Source: Hyaloscypha bicolor E
Lineage: Eukaryota > Ascomycota > Leotiomycetes > Helotiales > Hyaloscyphaceae
Length of the DNA: 64,000 nt
NCBI RefSeq assembly: GCF_002865645.1
Contig: NW_020194555.1
Coordinates: 3,312,288 to 3,376,287, forward strand
Reading direction: 5' to 3'
The notes below the pieces were generated by a model, which was not told the DNA's origin, made no database searches, and worked only from the letters and a program-made list of their open reading frames with translations. This document shows positions 2,712-40,296 of this stretch, piece after piece. A program made the translations under genes and the position numbers. How positions within the stretch are numbered: the first letter of the stretch is position 1; every line of letters begins with the position of its first letter.

Positions 2712-5513
2712 ATGGCCTCGAAAGTGAGTGAGCTAGCGCTTGCCGTGCTGTGGCAGGGAGCATAAGGCTCAGCTGCTAATTGACTGGTGCTATAGTTCTT
2801 GAGAGAGTATAAGCTTGTTGTTGTTGGTGGAGGAGGAGTCGGGAAATCGTGCTTGACGATCCAGTTGATACAGAGCCACTTCGTGGATGAGTATGATCCC
2901 ACAATCGAAGACACGTACCGTAAGCAATGTGTGATTGACGAAGAAGTCGCGTTACTGGATGTCCTCGACACGGCAGGCCAGGAAGAGTATGCAGCCATGC
3001 GAGAGCAATATATGCGAACTGGGGAAGGCTTTCTGCTAGTTTACAGCATTACGGATCGACAGAGTTTCGAGGAGATCTTAACGTTCGAACAGCAGATTTT
3101 GTCAGTCAAAGATAAGGATTACTTCCCGATTATTGTAGTTGGTAATAAGTGTGATTTGGAAGGCGAGAGAGTAGTGTCGAGGCAAGAGGGCGAAGCACGG
3201 GCTCATTCCTTTGGCTGCAAATTCATCGAGACATCCGCAAAGTGCCGCATCAACGTCGACAACGCCTTCTACGACATGGTTCGCGAGATCAGACGCTTCA
3301 ATAAGGAGTTATCAGTTAGACAATCGCTTGTTCCTGTTTGGAAGCCTCCTCCGGCTAGAAAACCGGAAGCTTCTGATTTTAAGTTCGACTTCAATCTCGC
3401 GCCGAAATCTCTCACAACTCTCCCACCTCTCATACAAAAAGCGAAGACTTATGCTCCTAAGCAGGTGAAAGGGAGTCTCTACCGAACTCTAGATTCCGAC
3501 AATTACGAGGTACGATTACTGAAGTTGCACCCTGATTATCTTGATGGTGGGGGTCCGCTCGGGTTTTCGCTGGAATATGCGTCCCTGATCAATCCTCCCG
3601 AGTACATTGGACTTTCATATTGCTGGGGCGATGCAAAAAAGTCGTCGGAGGCAATGATCGACGTTGGTGAACGGTCTTTCTTCAACGTGAAAGTCACTGG
3701 TAATCTTGGGCAAGCTCTCAGGGGCCTCCGGCCTAAGATTGGAAAGACGAGGCTCTGGGTTGATGCCCTGTGCATTAATCAAGAAGATTTGACTGAGAGA
3801 AGTCAGCAGGTTCGGTTGATGCGGCAGATTTATTCAAGGGCGAAAGAGGTGATTTCTTGGGTTCCGTGTGATACCTGGAATCCTTACGGCTTTGGGGGCT
3901 ATTCCCGTTCAAAGGGAGATGCGATTGAGTCTCTGATCAAGAATAAATTTGACGGAAAGGGGGCTAAAACTCGACTATTACCGTTCGAGAAGCAAGGAGA
4001 AAAGACTGGAAATGGACGGGTGAGAGATGGATGGGAAGTAATTCACGATTTCTTCAGCGAATCATACTGGACACGCGTTTGGGTTATCCAAGAAATAGCA
4101 GTGAACGCAAACGCCAAAGTTCTCTGCGGAGAGTTCGAGATTCCTTGGGATGATGTGGTTGCTGCTCTCATGGTGTGGAAGAAAAATCCGGACATGGCAC
4201 CTCTCCACCAACGAGCGTTTCTCAAAGCTGTACACCTTGCAGAATTTCGAGATAGATTTTCATCTAAGATGGAGCCGATCTGCTTACTTGATGCGATGCG
4301 CTGGAGTTACCAAACCATGGCGACTGATCCGAGAGACAAGATCTTTGGCTTGCTAGGACTGTGTCACGACAGTGATACCTTTGTACCTATTCCGAACTAC
4401 AAGCAACCGCTTGAGGATATTATCACGGACGTGAGTAAAAGAATGATGAGTCTCACTCGCTCGTTGGATCTCATGTGCTTTAAAGGGACTTCTTTGTCCG
4501 AAGTAAGCAACAATAATTTACCGTCATGGACACCGAATTGGATGAATCTTTGGACCGGCTCCTTCCACTCCATGACAATGCACGAAACGAGATTCTCAGA
4601 CTGGCACCGCACCTACCCATTCAACCCCGTTCTCAATGACTCCACAAACAAGATTCTGAAAGTTAAGGGCATGCAGAGTGGCACGATATACCAACTTAGT
4701 TCTGTGATGGCTCAGCCGAGCTCCGAGGGACGAATCAGCCTAAATCTATCAATTGAGCCTCGAGTACCTTGGATCACATCTACGGCTTCACTAGCCGGTG
4801 AAAATTCCCCGCTAAGCAGAGCCAAGGATAAGGACCTCGCAGTGCGAGATTGCATCTTGCAAACCTTGACAATGGGTCTCCTTCCCCCCGGGATGACTGT
4901 GGAGTCCGCAGCTTTATGTTTCTCGAAGCTTTGGACACCCGAGGGAAGGGGGGCGATGCACAACCTTGCGCTAATAGAATGGATTGACAAGAATGCATGG
5001 CTTCCATATATGGACTGGACACTGCGGGAATGGTCGCAGATGAAAGCCCGTTCTACCTCTCGTCCTCAATCCCCTGGGGGAAGTTGGAAATTTCTCAAGC
5101 CCAGTCAAAGCCGAAGCCAAAGTCAAATAAATGTAGAAAAGCAGAAAACAGAAAACACTATTGAGCAACTTAATGCTTTTATCGACACCCTCGAGCGTGT
5201 CTTGAAAAGCGGGATGCGATTATCTGTCCTCCGTCGATTGGATCCGTCAGGCGAGGAGTACATCGGAATGGTGCCTCCTCGTGCGAGGCCGTTAGATCAG
5301 GTGTGGCATATTCAAGGGTGCAGTGTGCCGATTGTGATGAGGGAGTTCGGCGGGAATAGTGGTGAGTTGTTGCACGAGGTCATTGGGGCCGTACATTTGC
5401 ATGATGGAAAGAAGATGTTTGGTACTGAGGAAAGGTGGATAAGGGGCGAGCCGAAAGATAGTCTTTTGATGAACACACCGAAAAATGTGGTACAAGTCTT
5501 GCATCTCTGCTGA
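2712..5513 (+). CDS. Ras GTPase-HET domain fusion protein, 908 aa
   Basis: CDS is join(2712..2723, 2796..5513): ATG GCC TCG AAA, a 72-bp intron (GTGAGT...CTATAG), then one open frame. Residues 1-175 are a complete Ras domain close to fungal Ras1: P-loop GGGGVGKS (15-22), switch I YDPTIED (37-43), DTAGQEEY (62-69, catalytic Gln66 present), NKCD (121-124), ETSAK (149-153). The start MASK is that of fungal Ras. No hypervariable tail or CAAX box follows. After a linker rich in Pro and Lys, a HET domain starts near residue 240, with [10 protein letters not shown] (about 274), [12 protein letters not shown] (about 324) and a W-x-R-x-W-V-I-Q-E block. HET domains trigger cell death in heterokaryon incompatibility. 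The rest to the C-terminus is the usual variable HET-protein tail. No stop or frameshift separates the two parts. The function as a GTP-controlled HET switch is inference. Confidence 0.9.
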
Positions 5514-6023: not shown

Positions 6024-8217
6024 TCACCTCAATGTTGCTGAGAGAGACTTGACTCCCTCTGGATGGAACTCTTCCACTTCATCGACATGATCTGGCGAGT
6101 ATAGTGACGTTTCCATCTTTTTCAATTCCTCATTCGTCCTGACTTGCAATATCGGCGCGCTTAGAGCTAATTGTGACAGACCGAGGCCAGACCATGCTAA
6201 GTACTTGATTGGAGAGAAAGGAGGTTGGATCCACATCCAGGCATCTGCAAACCATGCTCTTAAACGGGCCAGGTTCAAAGCAAGAAGGATGGAGGGGAGG
6301 GACACTGCCATCGAGATACCAACTATGAAGATTCGAAATTAGCACAATGATTTCGTGTCTGCGAAAGTGGATAGATACGTATAGAGGTATTTGGAAACCC
6401 AGGCTAGAGTCAGGTGTGATGATCCATCGCTGTTCTTTGGGAATTCTTCGAAGTTTATGGCGAAGAAGGCAGCCATGAATGACAACGGGAGCTGGAACTG
6501 CGTTAGCAATATCTGTCATATGAGACGGTTCAAGAACTTGCAAATATAATTGTGGCGATTGTGAAGGTCATAAGAGTTTGTCCTTGTCTTGAAGTTTCCT
6601 CGGCTTGACGAGCAGTGTTTTTTTGTTGTTGTCTTGAAAGAGAAGCTTCGAATGCATTAACCTTCTTTAATTTCAAGTCGACGAGATATATTAACTTTGA
6701 ATGTCAGCTCACTATCGAAGGTTCTGGTTAATCAAAGACTTACAGCGTCACGGTTGCGGTTTGCCTGTTGTCGCAGCTTTTCAACTTCGCGATGATGCTT
6801 TGAATATGCGCGACGAACTATTTGATGCCATTCGTCATCTCGCAGGTCCCTACGTACTGGGAAGCCCTGGATCACACGATACTGAGCATCCTTAACCAGG
6901 ATCATCGTATTTAGCTCTTCGCCAATCCTTTCGATCTCTGTGAGTAATTTGGTTTCTTGTGAAATATCAAGAGAACTTAGTTGATCACCATTCGGAGAAA
7001 TATTTGTAACCTTGAATTCCTTGAGAAGCCGTCTCTGCTCTGTTGCCTAGTACAGCTAAAGCCCTGTTCTTAGTCAAAGAGACACTCGAGTTGGCTAGTT
7101 ACTATAATATCAATAGATCTCTCGAAGAAGTCCATGAATTTCATGCCCCTTTCCCAAATCCTTTGCCGTGATCCACTGCATAGAGGCAGTGAGACATAAC
7201 GAACAGCGCAAACTGCCAGCTATTCAATATTGGCAATCTCTGAGAAGAATTAAGATCGGCGAGGATAGTATCGAAAATCATGAATTCTTGATCTTCGTCC
7301 TGTCTCCACCGGTTGGGGAAACAGGTTATGATGGTTTCTGTAGGGGATGTGTCAGATCAAGAATCTTCTCTTAGTTATGTTCTAGAGGACACACTTGCAT
7401 CGAGTATCCAGAGCAAGAGCTCTTCAACCATAAAAAGTCGCTCGTGGTTCAGGCCGGTGTTGCGATACACTAATTGATCTTTATCTCGCGCGTCAGTTCC
7501 TCTAAAGGTGTAGTTGTATTGGTCCAATGTACGCCGAACATGAAAGTTGGAGGTTTGTTTTGTGTGAGAAGGACGAAGATATGCTCGTAACAAATTCACG
7601 TCGACAAGGGGCGACTGTTTGGTCGAAACAGATTGGCGCGATCTTGTGACCTCTTGTATCACGGTATCCATGCAAGATTGATATTTGTAGGCCTCATAAT
7701 TGAGGTAAGGTAGCTGAGCAACACAGTGTTAGCTTCGAAGACGTTCAAGGTAAAGAAGCATTATACATATATGGCCGCAGCACCACTCCCACTCGCATTA
7801 ATTCTGGTCTCATGAAGACTGAATGGGGAAGATAGCCTCTATGTTGTTGTTCAGACCAGTCGATTCGAACTGGGGAGACGGGACCCCACGAGTTATCTTC
7901 CATAGTCCTCCGCTCTATGTTGATCCTTTTCATGAGATCCTAAATTGAATGTTAGCAATATATCTCGGCTATGAATGGATGCCTACCATGGCCCATATCA
8001 CCTGCCCAAAGTTAGCCATATCAGGAAGAAGAAACGGTAGACAACACAATACGTACATTATTGGCAGGAAGATGTAACCATCGAAACACACGCGTAGCTT
8101 CTTCAATTTCTTTCATACTGTCTGTAACGTCCTGAATTAAAACTTCCGGACCCCTTCCCATACAGTAGGTCAAACACGGAAGGCCTTCCGACGACGTGGT
8201 ATTCTCGATGCCCTAAG
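6024..8217 (-). pseudogene. CorA-like membrane protein portion, downstream half of an NLR-like ankyrin gene
   Basis: Read on the minus strand this is the CorA-like domain that often follows ankyrin repeats in Pezizomycotina. Spliced blocks in order: FRWLHLPANN (near 8070-8100), LPYLNYEAYKYQ (near 7690), RRTLDQY and RDKDQLVYR (near 7480-7530), TIITCFPNRWRQDEDQEF (near 7300), a basic coiled-coil helix with QAEETSRQGQTLMTFTI (near 6560-6600), then PLSFMAAFFAINFEEFP (near 6450-6500, the membrane/GMN-like region) and a second hydrophobic helix (near 6260-6310). Several short introns are needed; one at 6498-6541 has a GC donor (GCAAGT). Phase 0 splicing from the ankyrin part (donor GTAGGC near 8310, acceptor TTCTTAG at 8218) joins the two parts into one protein. 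Frames near 7190-7220 and 6310-6400 do not join cleanly, so it is called broken, although most of it looks well kept. Confidence 0.7.
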
Positions 8218-8267: not shown

Positions 8268-10870
8268 TTATAGCAGTGGTTGCTTGGGGGGCTGCAAATC
8301 AGCTGGCATGCCTACTTCATCAATAACCGGTCCGTCAATAGGAGGTCTCTTTTGAAAGAGCTCGCGGATGCGTTCGTGCCGAGGGCTCTTTGCCAAGTCA
8401 AGGGGAGTCTTCCCATTCTTATCTTTTATCGTGATGTCTGCCCCTCTTCTAAGGAGGAACTCGGTAAGAGCGTATTGCGCATTTTCGACTGCTATATGGA
8501 GCAGCGTAATACCTTCTTCATTCACCAGGTTGATGTCGGCCCCCTGATCTAAGAGTAGTTTCGCAATATGTTGCGTTCCACTTTTAGCAGCCGCGTGTAG
8601 CACATCCACACCGGCCCCTTCCTCGATCAGGAGTTTTACGATCTCACCGTAGCCTCCTTCTGCAGCCAACCTAAGGGGTGATTTACCCCAGCGGCCGTAG
8701 TTGCTCGTGTTGAGTTTTGCTCCTTTTTCCAGCAGGATGAAGACCGCAGCCTAGTTCCCTCTTTCAATAGCAACGAGTAATGGAGTCCAGCCTCCCGCCG
8801 TGGCCGCCTCAATATCTGCTCCCTGCTTAGGCAGAAATGAAATCCCATCTTCTTGGTTGTGTTCGGCAGCTTTGTGGAGGGCCATTGATACCTGAGCACC
8901 CTTTGCCTCGACGTGGGCCCCCTTTTCAAGCAGCAATTTCAGTGTCGCCGTCTGCCCGCATGCCGCTGCAACCTGTAAACCTGTGTCTCCGTTCTTATTT
9001 TGTTGATTCCAGTCGAAGAAGCATTTTTGTCAATCCCAGGCTCTGGGGCGGTTTCGGTCAAGGTAGTCCAAGATCGATGTCAAGCCAAAAGCGCTTGCCA
9101 GAAAGAAGGGTGTTGTCGATGTACTGAACATGGCTCCAAGCTGGCGTCTTAGGATGGGAGGGCAACGTGAGATCTTGGCTTCCGATGAGTCCATCGCCGA
9201 TATCCACTTTGAGAATGAAAGACCGTTATTCAAGGTGGACTCCTGAAAAAGGAATTGTTGCAATTTCGTCGGAAGGTTGGCCTCGTCCAGATTATCCTGT
9301 ACAATTCTGCAATGCAAAGGCCAGTAAATATCTGCATAGTTCCGAAATATCTCATTTCGTTCGGCTATAGACCGATAATTCCCATTCGCTTGTTCGATAG
9401 TAGAGTCTGTTGAAGTTACTGACTCGAACAGGTATACATCAAGACATCTTTCTAAAGCAAGTGTATGGATTTTGGTGAAGCTGTAGTCGTCCCGAAGTTC
9501 AAGATACTCTCGGACGGAAAGATGAGTGAATCGAAATTCGTCTAGCACGCTGTCCCAGACCACGATGCCGTTGCATATCGACGTAATATGATTTCTGGTC
9601 AAAGATGTATGATGCCCATCAGAGTCCACGGAAATGGCCGCGATGAGTTCTCGGCTTTTCAGCGGTCTCTGTGCACACAGCATCCAATTCAGCGCTTTCT
9701 TTGCTGATCTACCAACAATGGGTCCTGAAGCTGGTGTCTTTAACATTTGATCGTGCATGTCCCCCAACCCGGGTTTTCTTCCCAGTATATTGTTGACATC
9801 ACTCTCCACTATCGCCATCAGCACTGCAATGAACTTGGTCTCGAATGTTCTATGGCAACTTCAGTGTGTTAAGGGCCAGTTAGCTTACGATTTTGGCCCG
9901 CGGGCGGGCTAGATGTTGCAATTGCCGACCAGTGCGTGAGTCCCTCTAACGAATGCAATATATCCTTTAGCCTCCTCACTTCTTCAACACTGTGATACAC
10001 TGCGAAATACTTATTAGCTATTTGGAGATTGGAATGGAACAAGAGGGAAAGGAAACATATTTTTCACCCTTTTCACTCGAGTAAGAATGTAGTGGCGAGG
10101 GTCTGGCGCTTTGGGCACCTGGCTGATTGTATAAGTGGACTGAAAATCCTGCCGGGGAAAATGACACTCACTTTCGATCCTGCCAGCAATTTCATCTACA
10201 TCAAACTTCTCCTCTGCCATCTTGAGGAAGTAGGTATCCGTATTCAAATCGGTCGTCTCGTGGGTGTTCATTCTCAGCCGTTGTATAGCATGCGAAAGGA
10301 ACATCAGCACAACAGTATACAACTTGACCATAGCTTGCATCAGTTCTTTCTGCGCTCTTTCATTTTCCCACCCTTCAAGAGTCTGTAGATACAGTTTGTC
10401 GAATAGAGCGCATTGCATAACCAGATGTGACGTGAACTCGAGCTCTTCAACAAAAGTCCCATATGTTTGCACATCTTTGATAGGAAGCTAAATAGCAGCG
10501 ATCATATGCTCGCATTACAGTAGTGGGCTCGAAAATACGCACTTGGAGCAGGACATAAATGTCGGTCCATGGCAGCACTGCACTCCCAAGAACTGCATCA
10601 CCACTCCCGACTTCTTTGAATCTGTTCACCCATCCTATTACCTTGTCCAAAAGGTCACGTATGACAATTTCCGTCTCTTTTTCTTGAATTTAAGTCGTCT
10701 TTCGATACAGATTTGCTTCTTCTTTTCAGCAACATCGAGCATATCTTTTAAAGAAGCAGGCCTGTCTTCTTGATCGAAGACGCTATAACTCTTGTACTCG
10801 TCACTCAAGGCGCCTTTTGCCCTCCCCCAGAGGTTTTCTGCCAGCCTGAGATTCCGAAGACATCAGCTCG
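8268..10870 (-). pseudogene. Decayed NLR-like gene: NACHT_N-like domain, no NACHT, ankyrin repeats
   Basis: Minus-strand blocks in order. (1) About 10870-10020: NWD/NACHT N-terminal-like domain, with LWGRAKGALSDEYK, KVIGWVNRFKEVG, LPWTDIYVLLQ and LVMQCALFDKLYL. (2) Expected next is a NACHT NTPase of some 300 residues, but under 200 bp remain before the following block and no P-loop is seen. (3) 9824-9030: the region behind NACHT, with KKALNWMLCAQRPLKSRELI and FRFTHLSVREYLE. (4) 9029-8268: about six ankyrin repeats, e.g. LLLDQGADINLVNEEGITLL. The ankyrin frame is constant but carries a TGA at 9030-9032 and a TAG at 8751-8753, the latter flanked by perfect repeat sequence. With the NACHT loss this marks a dead gene. 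Such proteins work in fungal non-self recognition. It continues into the CorA-like part at 6024-8217. Confidence 0.8.
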
Positions 10871-36080: not shown

Positions 36081-39000
36081 ATGCCGGCCATGGACTATCC
36101 GTTGCCAGACAGTGAGTTTCTCCCTCAGGAGTATTCCAGTTGGCTCCCACCTCCACTCCCAGACTACGGAGGAGCAGCGATTGAGTACTCCTCCGCAAGC
36201 CGCACACAATTGTTACCGCCACCCTCATACAACGACGAAAGTTATCTTTTTTGGCCGGTTGGGCACGCTTATGGCACCGCTGATACCTACCACGACCCCT
36301 TTGTGTTCGGCCAAACGTCGCTGTTACTTGATGCCAACGTAAACAATGCGATCACACAAGCGCAGCAGCTCCCGCTCCCGATGTCCGATGGTGCCAGCGA
36401 CGTGGATATGCAACCAATAGCTCCACAGCCTAATCCACGAAAGCGAAAAGCCCCGACGTTGCGAAACGATGATTGGGAGCCTGTCAAGGCCCGCGTTATC
36501 GAGCTGCACATAACCAAAAAGCTTGCGCTTCCCGAGGTGAAGGAGAGGGTGGAACGGGAGTACAAGGCGATCGGTTTTACCGCAACGTGAGTCTTCCACA
36601 GTGATGTACCATGCCCTTGGCTAAGCCTTGAAGAATTCGACAGTACAGGAGGCGTGTGAGCGAATGGGGCCTGGACAAGAATGTCAAGCCGAACGAGATG
36701 AAAGTCATAGTGAGAAAACGACAGCAGAGGAAGCTTGTTGAGACAAACAAAAGAGAGTTGGTCTTCAAAATGCGAGGGAACTTGTTGGAGCCCGAGAAGA
36801 TTGATCGGTGGATGAAGAGAAATGGGATTCCAGAAGACATGATATATGCTCCGAGCCCTGCTGCAAGTAAGTGAACCTCACACTTTGCTTCCCTCATATC
36901 TTTAGTATTGTTCTTCGCTGACACAGACAGCTACCCCCGCAGCGCTGAGTGCACGGACGGTTTCTGAGCAAGGCTCTCCAGCTTCCGTCATAATGAGCTG
37001 GGTGTCGCACCCCGTCCATTTTCCTGGTGTTCAGGCTCCACAAATTTTCGAGAACCTACCGATTCTTCAGCTTCAAGTATCCACGAAGGATCTCACGAGT
37101 GAGAGGCATTACTCATTTAGGGACTGTGGTCAGATGGCCTTAGTTTACTAATTCCTTTTAGAATCTCTTGTGGCCATCAGTGGAGCCTCACTCAGTTCAG
37201 AAACTCTTCTTAGAATGGTCCCAGAAACGAAAAATGGAAACTCCAATCATCTCTTGATCGACTCATTTTTACCACATTCGGCTTTCAAGGACGGCAATCT
37301 AGAAAACGCGGTTCCAACTCAACAAGTCGGCCAAATGGGCATTTTGCTGTTCCTTTACCTGATCTCGAACAGCTTTCCAGCGGAATTACACAGAGACAAA
37401 ATCTACCAATTGGTCAAGAGGAATTTCAGTCCAGGTATCTTTCGGACCCTTAAAGGCCACTCAGCCGACTCCCTTCTTGAGAATCTACTTCCACTCGCGG
37501 TTGAGGCTGAGATCTAGCAATGGTCAAGAATCTCATAAAGGCAGGAGCGAATGTTGATGCAAACAAGTGCAAGCTTGATCATTGCCCTATCCCTTTGACA
37601 CCATTGCAATTTGCATGCTTCAAAGCCAATGTACCATTGGCGCAAGAGTTGATCACAGCTGGGTCGACAATCGATGCACCCGAACCTGGATGGAAATGCA
37701 GCGCAATACTTCTTGCTATATATGGTCATGATCAATCCCGTTGGCGTGGTGTCCAATGGCCGAAACCGGTGGACAATGAGGGGCTTCTTGACTTAGTGCA
37801 GAAACTCATCGCTGGAGGCGCGAGTGTTAATGGCAGCGAAACTGACATGAACGCCACAACGGAATCCATACGTCAATGGAGAGTCAAACTCGAACCTGGA
37901 TACCTTTTCTACGAAATCATTGTCGAGCAGCACTCCCCATTGACCTTGGCATCTAAATACAAGTACAAAGAGCTTGTAGACTTTCTTGTTCTGGAAGGGG
38001 CTGATATTCAATTTCACACAGACGGTACATCATCCGCTCTGAGGCAATGCCTCCACGATTTACCGGACTGGTTCGAGGGCAAACCATACGCATTAGCCGA
38101 CCGTCTCAATGAATGGGACGACGAATCTGCGGCACGATCTACAATCGTAAATATGGCTCACAGTCTTATGCAAGCCGGTGCGGATCTTAACGACCATATT
38201 CCTTGCGAATTCATTGACTATTGTGAGCACTTTTGCTTGGAATGCTATTCAGTCCTTAATTTAGCGGTACTCATTGAAAGTCCCGAGCTCGTGGATGTCA
38301 TGCTCCACGCGGGTGCCAAAACAACATATCACTCTTTGGATCTCGCTATTGAAGTTAAAAGTTTCAATATCTTCAGCAAGCTCCTAGCCAAAGGCGCAAC
38401 TATTCCCGAGTGGGCAACCACCGAAAAGGGAAATGCATCCTCCCTCTGTATTCTAGAGGCAGATCCTAGAGATGTGAACCACTTTGATCTCCAGAGCAAG
38501 AGAGCGCTGGTTCTGGCCGCCCTCCGTCTCGGAGCTACTTCAGAGCTGGATAGTCTGATCAAATCCATGAATGGCTCCAGAAATCTCTTGGATGGCTGCA
38601 CTGGACTCACTAGTGCGATCGAAGATTGCTGTAGAAGTGGACATTATGAACCACTGAGGCACATGCTTGAAGCTGGCATCATACCTAAATCGCACCCGGC
38701 ACTGTTTGGGCGTTCTGTTCCTCTGATTATTCAGCATAATCGAGAAAAGATGCTGGATTTGGTCCTGGAAAATGGAGCGGATGTCAACGCGCGATATTAA
38801 AATCCGGGGGGGCCTGGAAAGCCCCCAATACTTCTCGCCATAGAGAAGGGTAACTTGGAACTCGTTCGGAAGCTACTAAGGGCGGGAGCAAACGTCGACA
38901 ATACAAAGGTTTGCAAACAGACCGGATGTTCCACACAAGGACCTGAGAATATGCTGGTCGCGGCGATTGCAACCAACAATTTGCCAGTGATTGAGGAGGT

Positions 39001-40296
39001 CCTCCAAATATGTGCCCAGGTCAACGGCTTCGGTAAAATGGATAAATATTATTTTGTCTCTCCAAATTGCCTGTGCTGCACTCCAATTACCATGGCTATC
39101 AAGGAGCGAAACTGGAAGTTGGTTGATCGACTTTACCGCGATGGCGCAAATGTTAACGATGCCGGCCGAGATCCAGGAGTTGTCCGCTATTTCACACCAC
39201 TTTGGGCCGCTATTTACGAGAAGAATTATCCACTTGTCAAATCCCTCATCAACGCCGGCGCCATAGTGAATGACCGACTGGCCTTGGAAGCGGCAGTAGA
39301 TAATGATGATCTACTTGAGCTTTTCATTCAAAAACTTGGTGCCAGCACATCCCTAAGCAAGAAACGCAATGCATTGCATTTTGCTCTACAAAAGTCACTA
39401 CATCAAAACAGCATTCCCAGGGTCAAGCTGATTTTGGACAGCCAATTGGTGGACTTGAGCGGCGTTCAGGGCGGCGAGGCGCTCAAAGAAGTGCTGACCT
39501 CAAAACAGGGAGTCAACCACACACTTCTGAATCTACTACCTGTCGCACATGCAAACCCCAATTCTTTTGTGCTTGGAGGCCGAACCGCGCTCCTTAATGC
39601 AATAGCCACAAAAGATGCGAAGAGCGTAGAGATGTTACTCAAGGCCGGCGCCATGACAAACACTCCATTTCCTTCATGGATGTACTATTCTCCAGTACAA
39701 TTGGCAGCTGAAGAAAGCAGTCTAGAAGTTCTGCAAATGCTCCTGGCTCACGGTTGCGATCCAAACGTCGTTGCGCCTGGTGGACAAAGCCAAGATCGCA
39801 AATCAATGGGATCAGCAATTCAATGTGCAACGGAAAGGCAGGATTACGAAATAGTCCAACTACTTTTGATGCATAACGCCGACCCTAATAGTGTCACAAA
39901 TACGTGTCCACATACCGCTTTGCAAATTGCGGCCGGGATGGAAGTAAAAGTATAGCCGAGCTTTTGATTATGCATGGTGCGGATGTGAATGCACCACCTG
40001 CAGAAAAATTTGGAGCAACTGCGCTCCAGTTCGCGGCTTTAGGCGGTTATCTAGGAGTAGCTAATCTTCTGATAGATAAAGGGGCCTATGTTAATGCTCC
40101 TCCCGCCAAGGTTGATGGGAGAACTGCGCTTGAAGCCGCAGCGGAATATGGCCGGATTGATATGGTTCAGTTACTAAAAAATGCTGGTGCAGATCTCTTT
40201 GAAGCAGGGGACGGGCAGTATGAGCGTGCTTTAACACGGGCGTTTAATAATGGCCATTACGCAACACGTCGCCTGCTTTTGTCTTACCTTACTTAA
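36081..40296 (+). pseudogene. Broken Clr5-domain ankyrin-repeat gene
   Basis: Exons 36081..36586, 36634..36866, 36931..37098 and from 37162. The protein starts MPAMDYPLPD and has a Clr5 domain: DWEPVKARVIELHITKKLALPEVKERV (split here as DWEPVKARVIELH and LPEVKERVEREYKAIGF) followed after an intron by RQYRRRVSEWGLDKN. Then come a linker and some 20 ankyrin repeats (for example NLIKAGANVDANKC, LLRAGANVDNTK, LLIMHGADVNAPP). Three breaks: a frameshift at about 37505-37515 (one base seems missing before GATCTAGCAATG), an in-frame TAA at 38798-38800 in the middle of a repeat, and a frameshift at about 39930-39945. Clr5 is named for a fission-yeast heterochromatin factor; Clr5-ankyrin proteins are a large, poorly known family in filamentous fungi. 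The stop could be a C-to-T change (CAA to TAA). Confidence 0.85.

Follow-up and report, generated by a model that had tools for sequence, protein, structure and literature searches.

A Ras1-like GTPase and a HET domain share one open reading frame in Hyaloscypha bicolor: a possible integrated decoy

A gene at positions 2712-5513 (+ strand) of a 64,000-nt stretch of Hyaloscypha bicolor E DNA (NW_020194555.1, positions 3,312,288-3,376,287, forward strand; hereafter, the window) codes for a single 909-residue protein made up of a Ras domain, a linker, a HET domain and a long C-terminal region. Together with another HET gene of the same genome that follows a different small GTPase, it suggests two acquisitions of small GTPases, each without its lipid anchor, by one HET lineage. 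We tentatively read the product as a single cytosolic protein whose Ras1 copy is an integrated decoy, or bait, joined to a HET death domain, and would give this reading slightly less than an even chance. The features of the gene are as follows.

2712-2723, + strand: exon 1 (MASK), beginning with the ATG at 2712; from the sequence, the first exon being identical in canonical ras1
2724-2795, + strand: predicted intron 1, 72 bp, GT-AG (GTGAGT...TATAG, branch-like GCTAAT); from the sequence and ras1
2796-5510, + strand: exon 2, 905 codons, stop-free; from the sequence
2796-3311, + strand: Ras domain, residues 5-176; Pfam PF00071, E 1.3e-57, and ras1 alignment
3312-3473, + strand: linker, residues 177-230, free of Met codons, in place of the Ras1 hypervariable tail and CAAX
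3474-4094, + strand: HET domain with N-terminal lead SLYRTLD; Pfam PF06985, E 4.8e-27, core 3603-4094, and alignment
4095-5513 including the stop, + strand: C-terminal region of the HET subfamily, ~470 residues; from alignment
5511-5513, + strand: stop codon; from the sequence

The occurrence of Ras and HET in one open frame, as stated in a preliminary description of this DNA, was borne out by the 905 stop-free codons and by two Pfam domains far above their cut-offs. In the Pfam analysis, run on the 905 residues of exon 2 (4 must be added to obtain the 909-residue numbering), Ras matched at 6-166 (E 1.3e-57, 194.4 bits against a cut-off of 21.6) and HET at 270-433 (E 4.8e-27, 95.5 bits against 22.5, over the full profile, 1-146), with the conserved HET blocks aligned; the remaining matches were weaker and corresponded to other GTPase families over the same stretch as Ras. 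The C-terminal ~470 residues gave no Pfam match and an NCBIfam scan of the protein yielded GTPase models only. Neither NACHT, NB-ARC nor repeats were matched by Pfam up to E 0.1, and by this measure the protein does not class with fungal NLR/STAND proteins. The clean Ras-type first intron described after MASK also stood, since canonical ras1 has its intron 1 (111 bp there) at the same position, and its splicing in the window gene is predicted from the sequence and from ras1. All the Ras motifs lie within residues 1-175 as described, whereas HET homology starts at about residue 231 (SLYRTLD, nt 3474) and not at about 240.

A stop or frameshift between the two domains was looked for in the sequence and is absent, nor is a join visible in the linker. 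Misassembly of a ras1 copy was also discarded, given that the Ras part is only 82% identical to ras1 in its bases. No in-frame Met codon occurs from residue 166 to 290, and the next one after 165, at 291, is already past the first HET block (276); hence a complete HET domain cannot start alone from this frame. We infer a single joint Ras-HET transcript and protein. The lack of an in-frame Met between residues 165 and 291, together with the second GTPase-HET gene in the genome, argues against a fusion by chance.

The Ras part has the nucleotide-binding motifs GGGGVGKS, T40 (human T35), DTAGQE with Q66 (human Q61), NKCD and ETSAK (909 numbering). It aligned over its length with R-Ras2, K-Ras and H-Ras, its best relatives of solved structure. 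An intact canonical ras1, with four exons and the CAAX end CAIM, is present on the same contig (C22:1388443-1389352, the end coordinate being reckoned from exon lengths). The two share 160 of 176 residues (91% identity), among them the P-loop, T40, Q66, NKCD and ETSAK, and their base differences at codon positions 1, 2 and 3 number 13, 9 and 71. The corresponding dN/dS is 0.052/1.52 (NG86) or 0.056/0.904 (YN00), a ratio of about 0.03-0.06 in which both lineages are summed and the absolute values are rough, with synonymous sites near saturation; so low a ratio is difficult to reconcile with neutral drift in the fused copy. Switch I and switch II contain one conservative change each (S39T and S65A, human numbering). 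Homology to ras1 ends at residue 176, directly before the hypervariable tail, and the CAAX anchor is thereby lost: the protein has no CAAX prenylation site, as the linker replaces the tail after residue 176 and the C-terminus is HLC. Judged by sequence, the Ras part arose by duplication of the resident ras1. It lacks introns 2 and 3, yet retention of intron 1 led us to reject a retrocopy of a complete ras1 mRNA; partial intron loss is possible.

The conserved HET blocks in the window protein are GLSYCWG at residue 276 (nt 3609), a ten-residue block at 324 (nt 3753) and VWVIQE at 432 (nt 4077). The HET domain conserves a functionally relevant Glu (PMC9815663, in the part available), and the Glu of VWVIQE (codon 4092-4094) is a candidate for the TIR-type glutamate. 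HET domains are described in excerpts of PMC12881547, PMC10197012 and PMC10890737 as TIR-like and sufficient to induce death, and in those of the latter two both the functions of most HET genes and how HET kills are described as open. A search of solved structures with the HET part produced one match, at E 0.89, which we take as chance.

A protein search of the whole genome (82.0 Mb, 76 contigs), with the best 50 of 487 candidates scored, revealed close HET relatives on contigs C70 (53%), C51 (44%) and C71 (40%), whose identities on alignment are 51%, 43% and 36%, respectively. With the C-terminal half of the C70 protein as query, nearly full-length matches were found only in the window, C70, C51 and C71 among the 87 matches listed (best 86 of 255 candidates scored), and the subfamily thus has at least four members. 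These four grouped together (support 100/99) in a tree built from 23 rows, of which 21 differ, the window protein pairing with C70 (99/93) and C51 with C71 (95/86). The two GTPase bearers are therefore not nearest kin, and at least two changes are needed to account for them. Homology common to the four members begins at an LY(R/K)-x-LD motif, immediately before which C71 has a Met, which makes the GTPase an N-side addition. Pfam detected HET alone in C70, and we found no Ras-family match before C70 or C71 in the genome match lists or in nearby reading frames. As control, 30 other loci were examined. Of these, 20 gave a HET reading frame that passed the motif filter, and a scan of the 18 distinct frames showed HET in all 18 and a second Pfam domain over the cut-off in none, with one sub-threshold match to DUF4070. 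The HET repertoire of this genome is very large, with at least 150 matches scored, all over the cut-off, from 785 candidates.

In C51 (locus L069, G000:C51:117500-125500, minus-strand numbering), a small GTPase immediately precedes the HET gene in the same orientation. Its best relatives of solved structure are Sec4, Rab8 and Rab1, it is identical to the genome's SEC4 (C54, ending GGGKCC) at 96 of 184 aligned residues, and it shares both SEC4 intron positions (placed by eye); on this evidence it is a diverged duplicate of SEC4. It keeps the P-loop and NKSD, has DTSGVE for DTAGQE and Ser for the switch I Thr, and lacks the Cys-Cys end. Between GTPase and HET lies an inserted element.

L069 3625-4047, minus strand: 423-bp element in C51, with ends TGTTGAA/TTCAACA (7-bp inverted) and CTCTA on both flanks

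Subtracting 423 + 5 bases brings the GTPase and HET codons into one phase. There is no stop in the last GTPase exon up to the insertion site, nor in the HET frame from that site until a TAA at 5036, and the present stop of the GTPase (TAG) is inside the element. C51 was thus a single SEC4-HET frame before the insertion, and we rejected the view that these are mere neighbouring genes, since the stop between them belongs to the element. The HET part (G000:C51:119503-121422, -) has a single in-frame stop and is otherwise open over ~700 codons. The C51 copy is broken today, by the element and by the in-frame TAA.

The element is flanked by a target duplication of 5 bp (CTCTA) and contains a minisatellite of ~10 units of 18 bp. 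Its left part occurs in at least 39 other places at 96-100% identity (best 40 of 175 candidates) and its right part in at least 39 others at 99-100% (best 40 of 148 candidates), nearly all matches ending at its borders or within a few bases; for a 29-base piece of the 18-bp repeat array, the genome has 162 occurrences, versus none for the reversed control. Copies that end at the borders and the repeat counts indicate a dispersed mobile element that inserted in C51, probably recently active given that most copies are 98-100% identical.

If the Ras-like part is indeed a bait, a foreign protein (a microbial effector or toxin, or a partner mismatched on hyphal fusion) would bind or modify it, and the HET domain would then be released or brought together to kill the cell and shield the colony. 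The bait would mimic Ras1 and Sec4, which serve polarised growth and secretion and would be profitable targets for invaders. One mark of an integrated decoy, a housekeeping duplicate fused to an immune protein, is found here: ras1, and SEC4 in the case of C51, are kept elsewhere in the genome, and from its family we take the HET protein to belong to immunity. Favouring a bait are the N-side GTPases in two of the four subfamily members, the extra ras1 copy and its constrained sequence, and the presence of two different GTPases in one HET lineage would fit an exchange of baits. Points against it are that catalytic residues needless for a pure bait are kept in the Ras part; that the closest HET relative, C70 (51%), has a GTPase neither within its frame nor immediately ahead of it; that this strain has not preserved the C51 branch intact; and that the tree requires the GTPase to have been gained twice, or gained once with losses and a swap besides. 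Slightly less likely again is the broader proposal that copies of the housekeeping small GTPases Ras1 and Sec4 are captured repeatedly by one lineage of HET death proteins as exchangeable sensors, making them integrated decoys of a non-NLR immune protein.

An alternative is a GTP-gated death switch in which the Ras domain takes the place of the NACHT/STAND module, NACHT being a nucleotide switch, and the cell's own Ras GEFs and GAPs gate HET; loading or hydrolysis would open or close HET, and death would read out Ras signalling, for example in hyphal fusion. Intact and constrained nucleotide-binding and catalytic motifs in the window copy agree with this idea, as does the occurrence of HET in HET-NACHT-WD40 proteins (PMC12881547, in excerpt). 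Strict conservation of the Ras part would suit a Ras1-like bait and a working switch equally well. In C51, however, Val stands in place of the catalytic Gln and Ser is aligned with the switch I Thr, so that GTP cycling is probably not shared, though the C51 copy may have decayed; moreover, the membrane anchor for meeting membrane-bound GEFs is missing. We consider such a switch rather unlikely. The preliminary description had proposed both a decoy and a GTP-gated effector, and these two stay in the lead, the decoy strengthened by the SEC4 case in C51 and by anchor loss. As the second member has a SEC4-like GTPase with a diverged switch and both GTPases are without the lipid-anchor end, the sequence evidence leans to a bait over a GTP switch.

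An improbable account is that ras1 and SEC4 duplicates landed by chance before HET genes and are tolerated relics with little or no function, as the breakage of C51 by the element and the in-frame TAA might suggest. With at least 150 HET matches (from 785 candidates), odd neighbours are to be expected somewhere: if placed at random, Ras and HET genes should form 0.03-0.29 co-oriented pairs within 1 kb, depending on the HET and Ras gene counts, and the chance of two or more such pairs is 0.0005-0.035. We surveyed 61 Ras-family and 25 Arf-family matches versus 225 listed HET places, a HET list that is incomplete (150 of 785 candidates scored), and 2 of the 61 Ras-family matches, those in the window and at C51:122 kb, were within 1 kb of HET; no other GTPase-HET pair within 1 kb was found among the listed matches. 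That both pairs fall in one subfamily makes chance less likely, bearing in mind that the second was found by following that subfamily. Also against a functionless chimera are the 909 open codons kept despite near-saturated synonymous sites, the Ras dN/dS of about 0.03-0.06 and the two in-frame captures in a subfamily of four. Two looser associations, within 10 kb, were observed in this survey: a weak, interrupted Ras match (G000:C51:1589418-1589774, -) 3.1 kb downstream of a HET gene (1592850-1593917, -), and an Arf-family gene (G000:C5:1501963-1502432, -) 5 kb from a HET gene (1496490-1496948, +).

Very improbable, finally, are two separate products, a Ras-like protein ended in the linker by alternative splicing or polyadenylation and a HET protein from an unseen upstream exon. 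The C71 Met directly before the homologous HET start might speak for them; against them, the frame is uninterrupted and has no in-frame Met at residues 166-290, a stretch reaching past the first HET block, and the GTPase-HET junction in C51 is likewise in frame.

The decoy reading can be set beside known systems. Like the HET proteins TOL, PIN-C, HET-6 and BH of het-B, as described in excerpts of PMC10197012 and PMC10890737, the window protein has HET blocks and a long C-terminal region and is not an NLR, but differs from them in the complete small GTPase before HET. It shares with fungal Ras1/RasA, represented by the genome's ras1, 91% identity over 176 residues, the first exon and the intron 1 position, and departs from it in lacking the hypervariable tail, CAAX and introns 2 and 3 and in the HET attached. 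Small GTPase state triggers death or immunity in animal Pyrin/RhoA and plant Rac-NLR systems, which involve separate proteins, belong to other kingdoms and have no HET domain. Sec4, a Rab, functions in the secretory pathway to which SEC-9 also belongs. In fungal NLRs, duplicated kinase domains of CHK-2 are putative integrated decoys (PMC12258605, in the part available), and there too a duplicated housekeeping signalling domain is fused to an immune protein, whereas the window protein has no NACHT/NB-ARC and has a small GTPase, N-terminal to HET, as its candidate decoy. PLP-1 possibly surveils the t-SNARE SEC-9 (PMC12881547, in excerpt); in this pair and in HET-E/HET-C, discussed as guard-type, an immune protein likewise watches conserved trafficking or lipid-transfer machinery, with the guardee, in the text available, a separate protein, unlike the window copy, which is covalently built in. 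We found no published Ras-HET or GTPase-HET protein in the main text of the openly licensed papers listed (domain databases may well list such proteins unremarked), and no openly licensed paper contains both PF00071 and PF06985 accessions, in agreement with the earlier remark that no system of this form had been described.

Were the decoy reading correct, a HET protein with its own recognisable sensor would offer a direct way in to HET function, the bait naming the guarded pathway, and Ras biochemistry supplies ready-made locked mutants for HET questions. It would also carry the integrated-decoy idea over from NLRs to HET proteins, place the Ras/exocytosis machinery of polarised growth among fungal guardees and predict enemies that attack Ras and Sec4.

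In the window, the Ras-HET gene is preceded by the 3' part of MLH1 (Pfam Mlh1_C) and followed on the minus strand by pieces of an ankyrin NLR-like gene (8268-9860, upstream to about 11200) with a winged-helix match, ankyrin repeats and in-frame stops between open stretches; the pieces within 8268-9860, when scanned, gave no Pfam match to NACHT. This relic could be a former partner of the Ras-HET gene. Beyond it lie RPN1 (opposite strand) and then RIO2 (+). Three frames at 6027-7728 (-; 6027-6338, 6735-7046 and 7378-7728) contain one membrane-like stretch and have no Pfam match, and farther along, at 37511-39955 (+), are two large adjacent reading frames full of ankyrin repeats.
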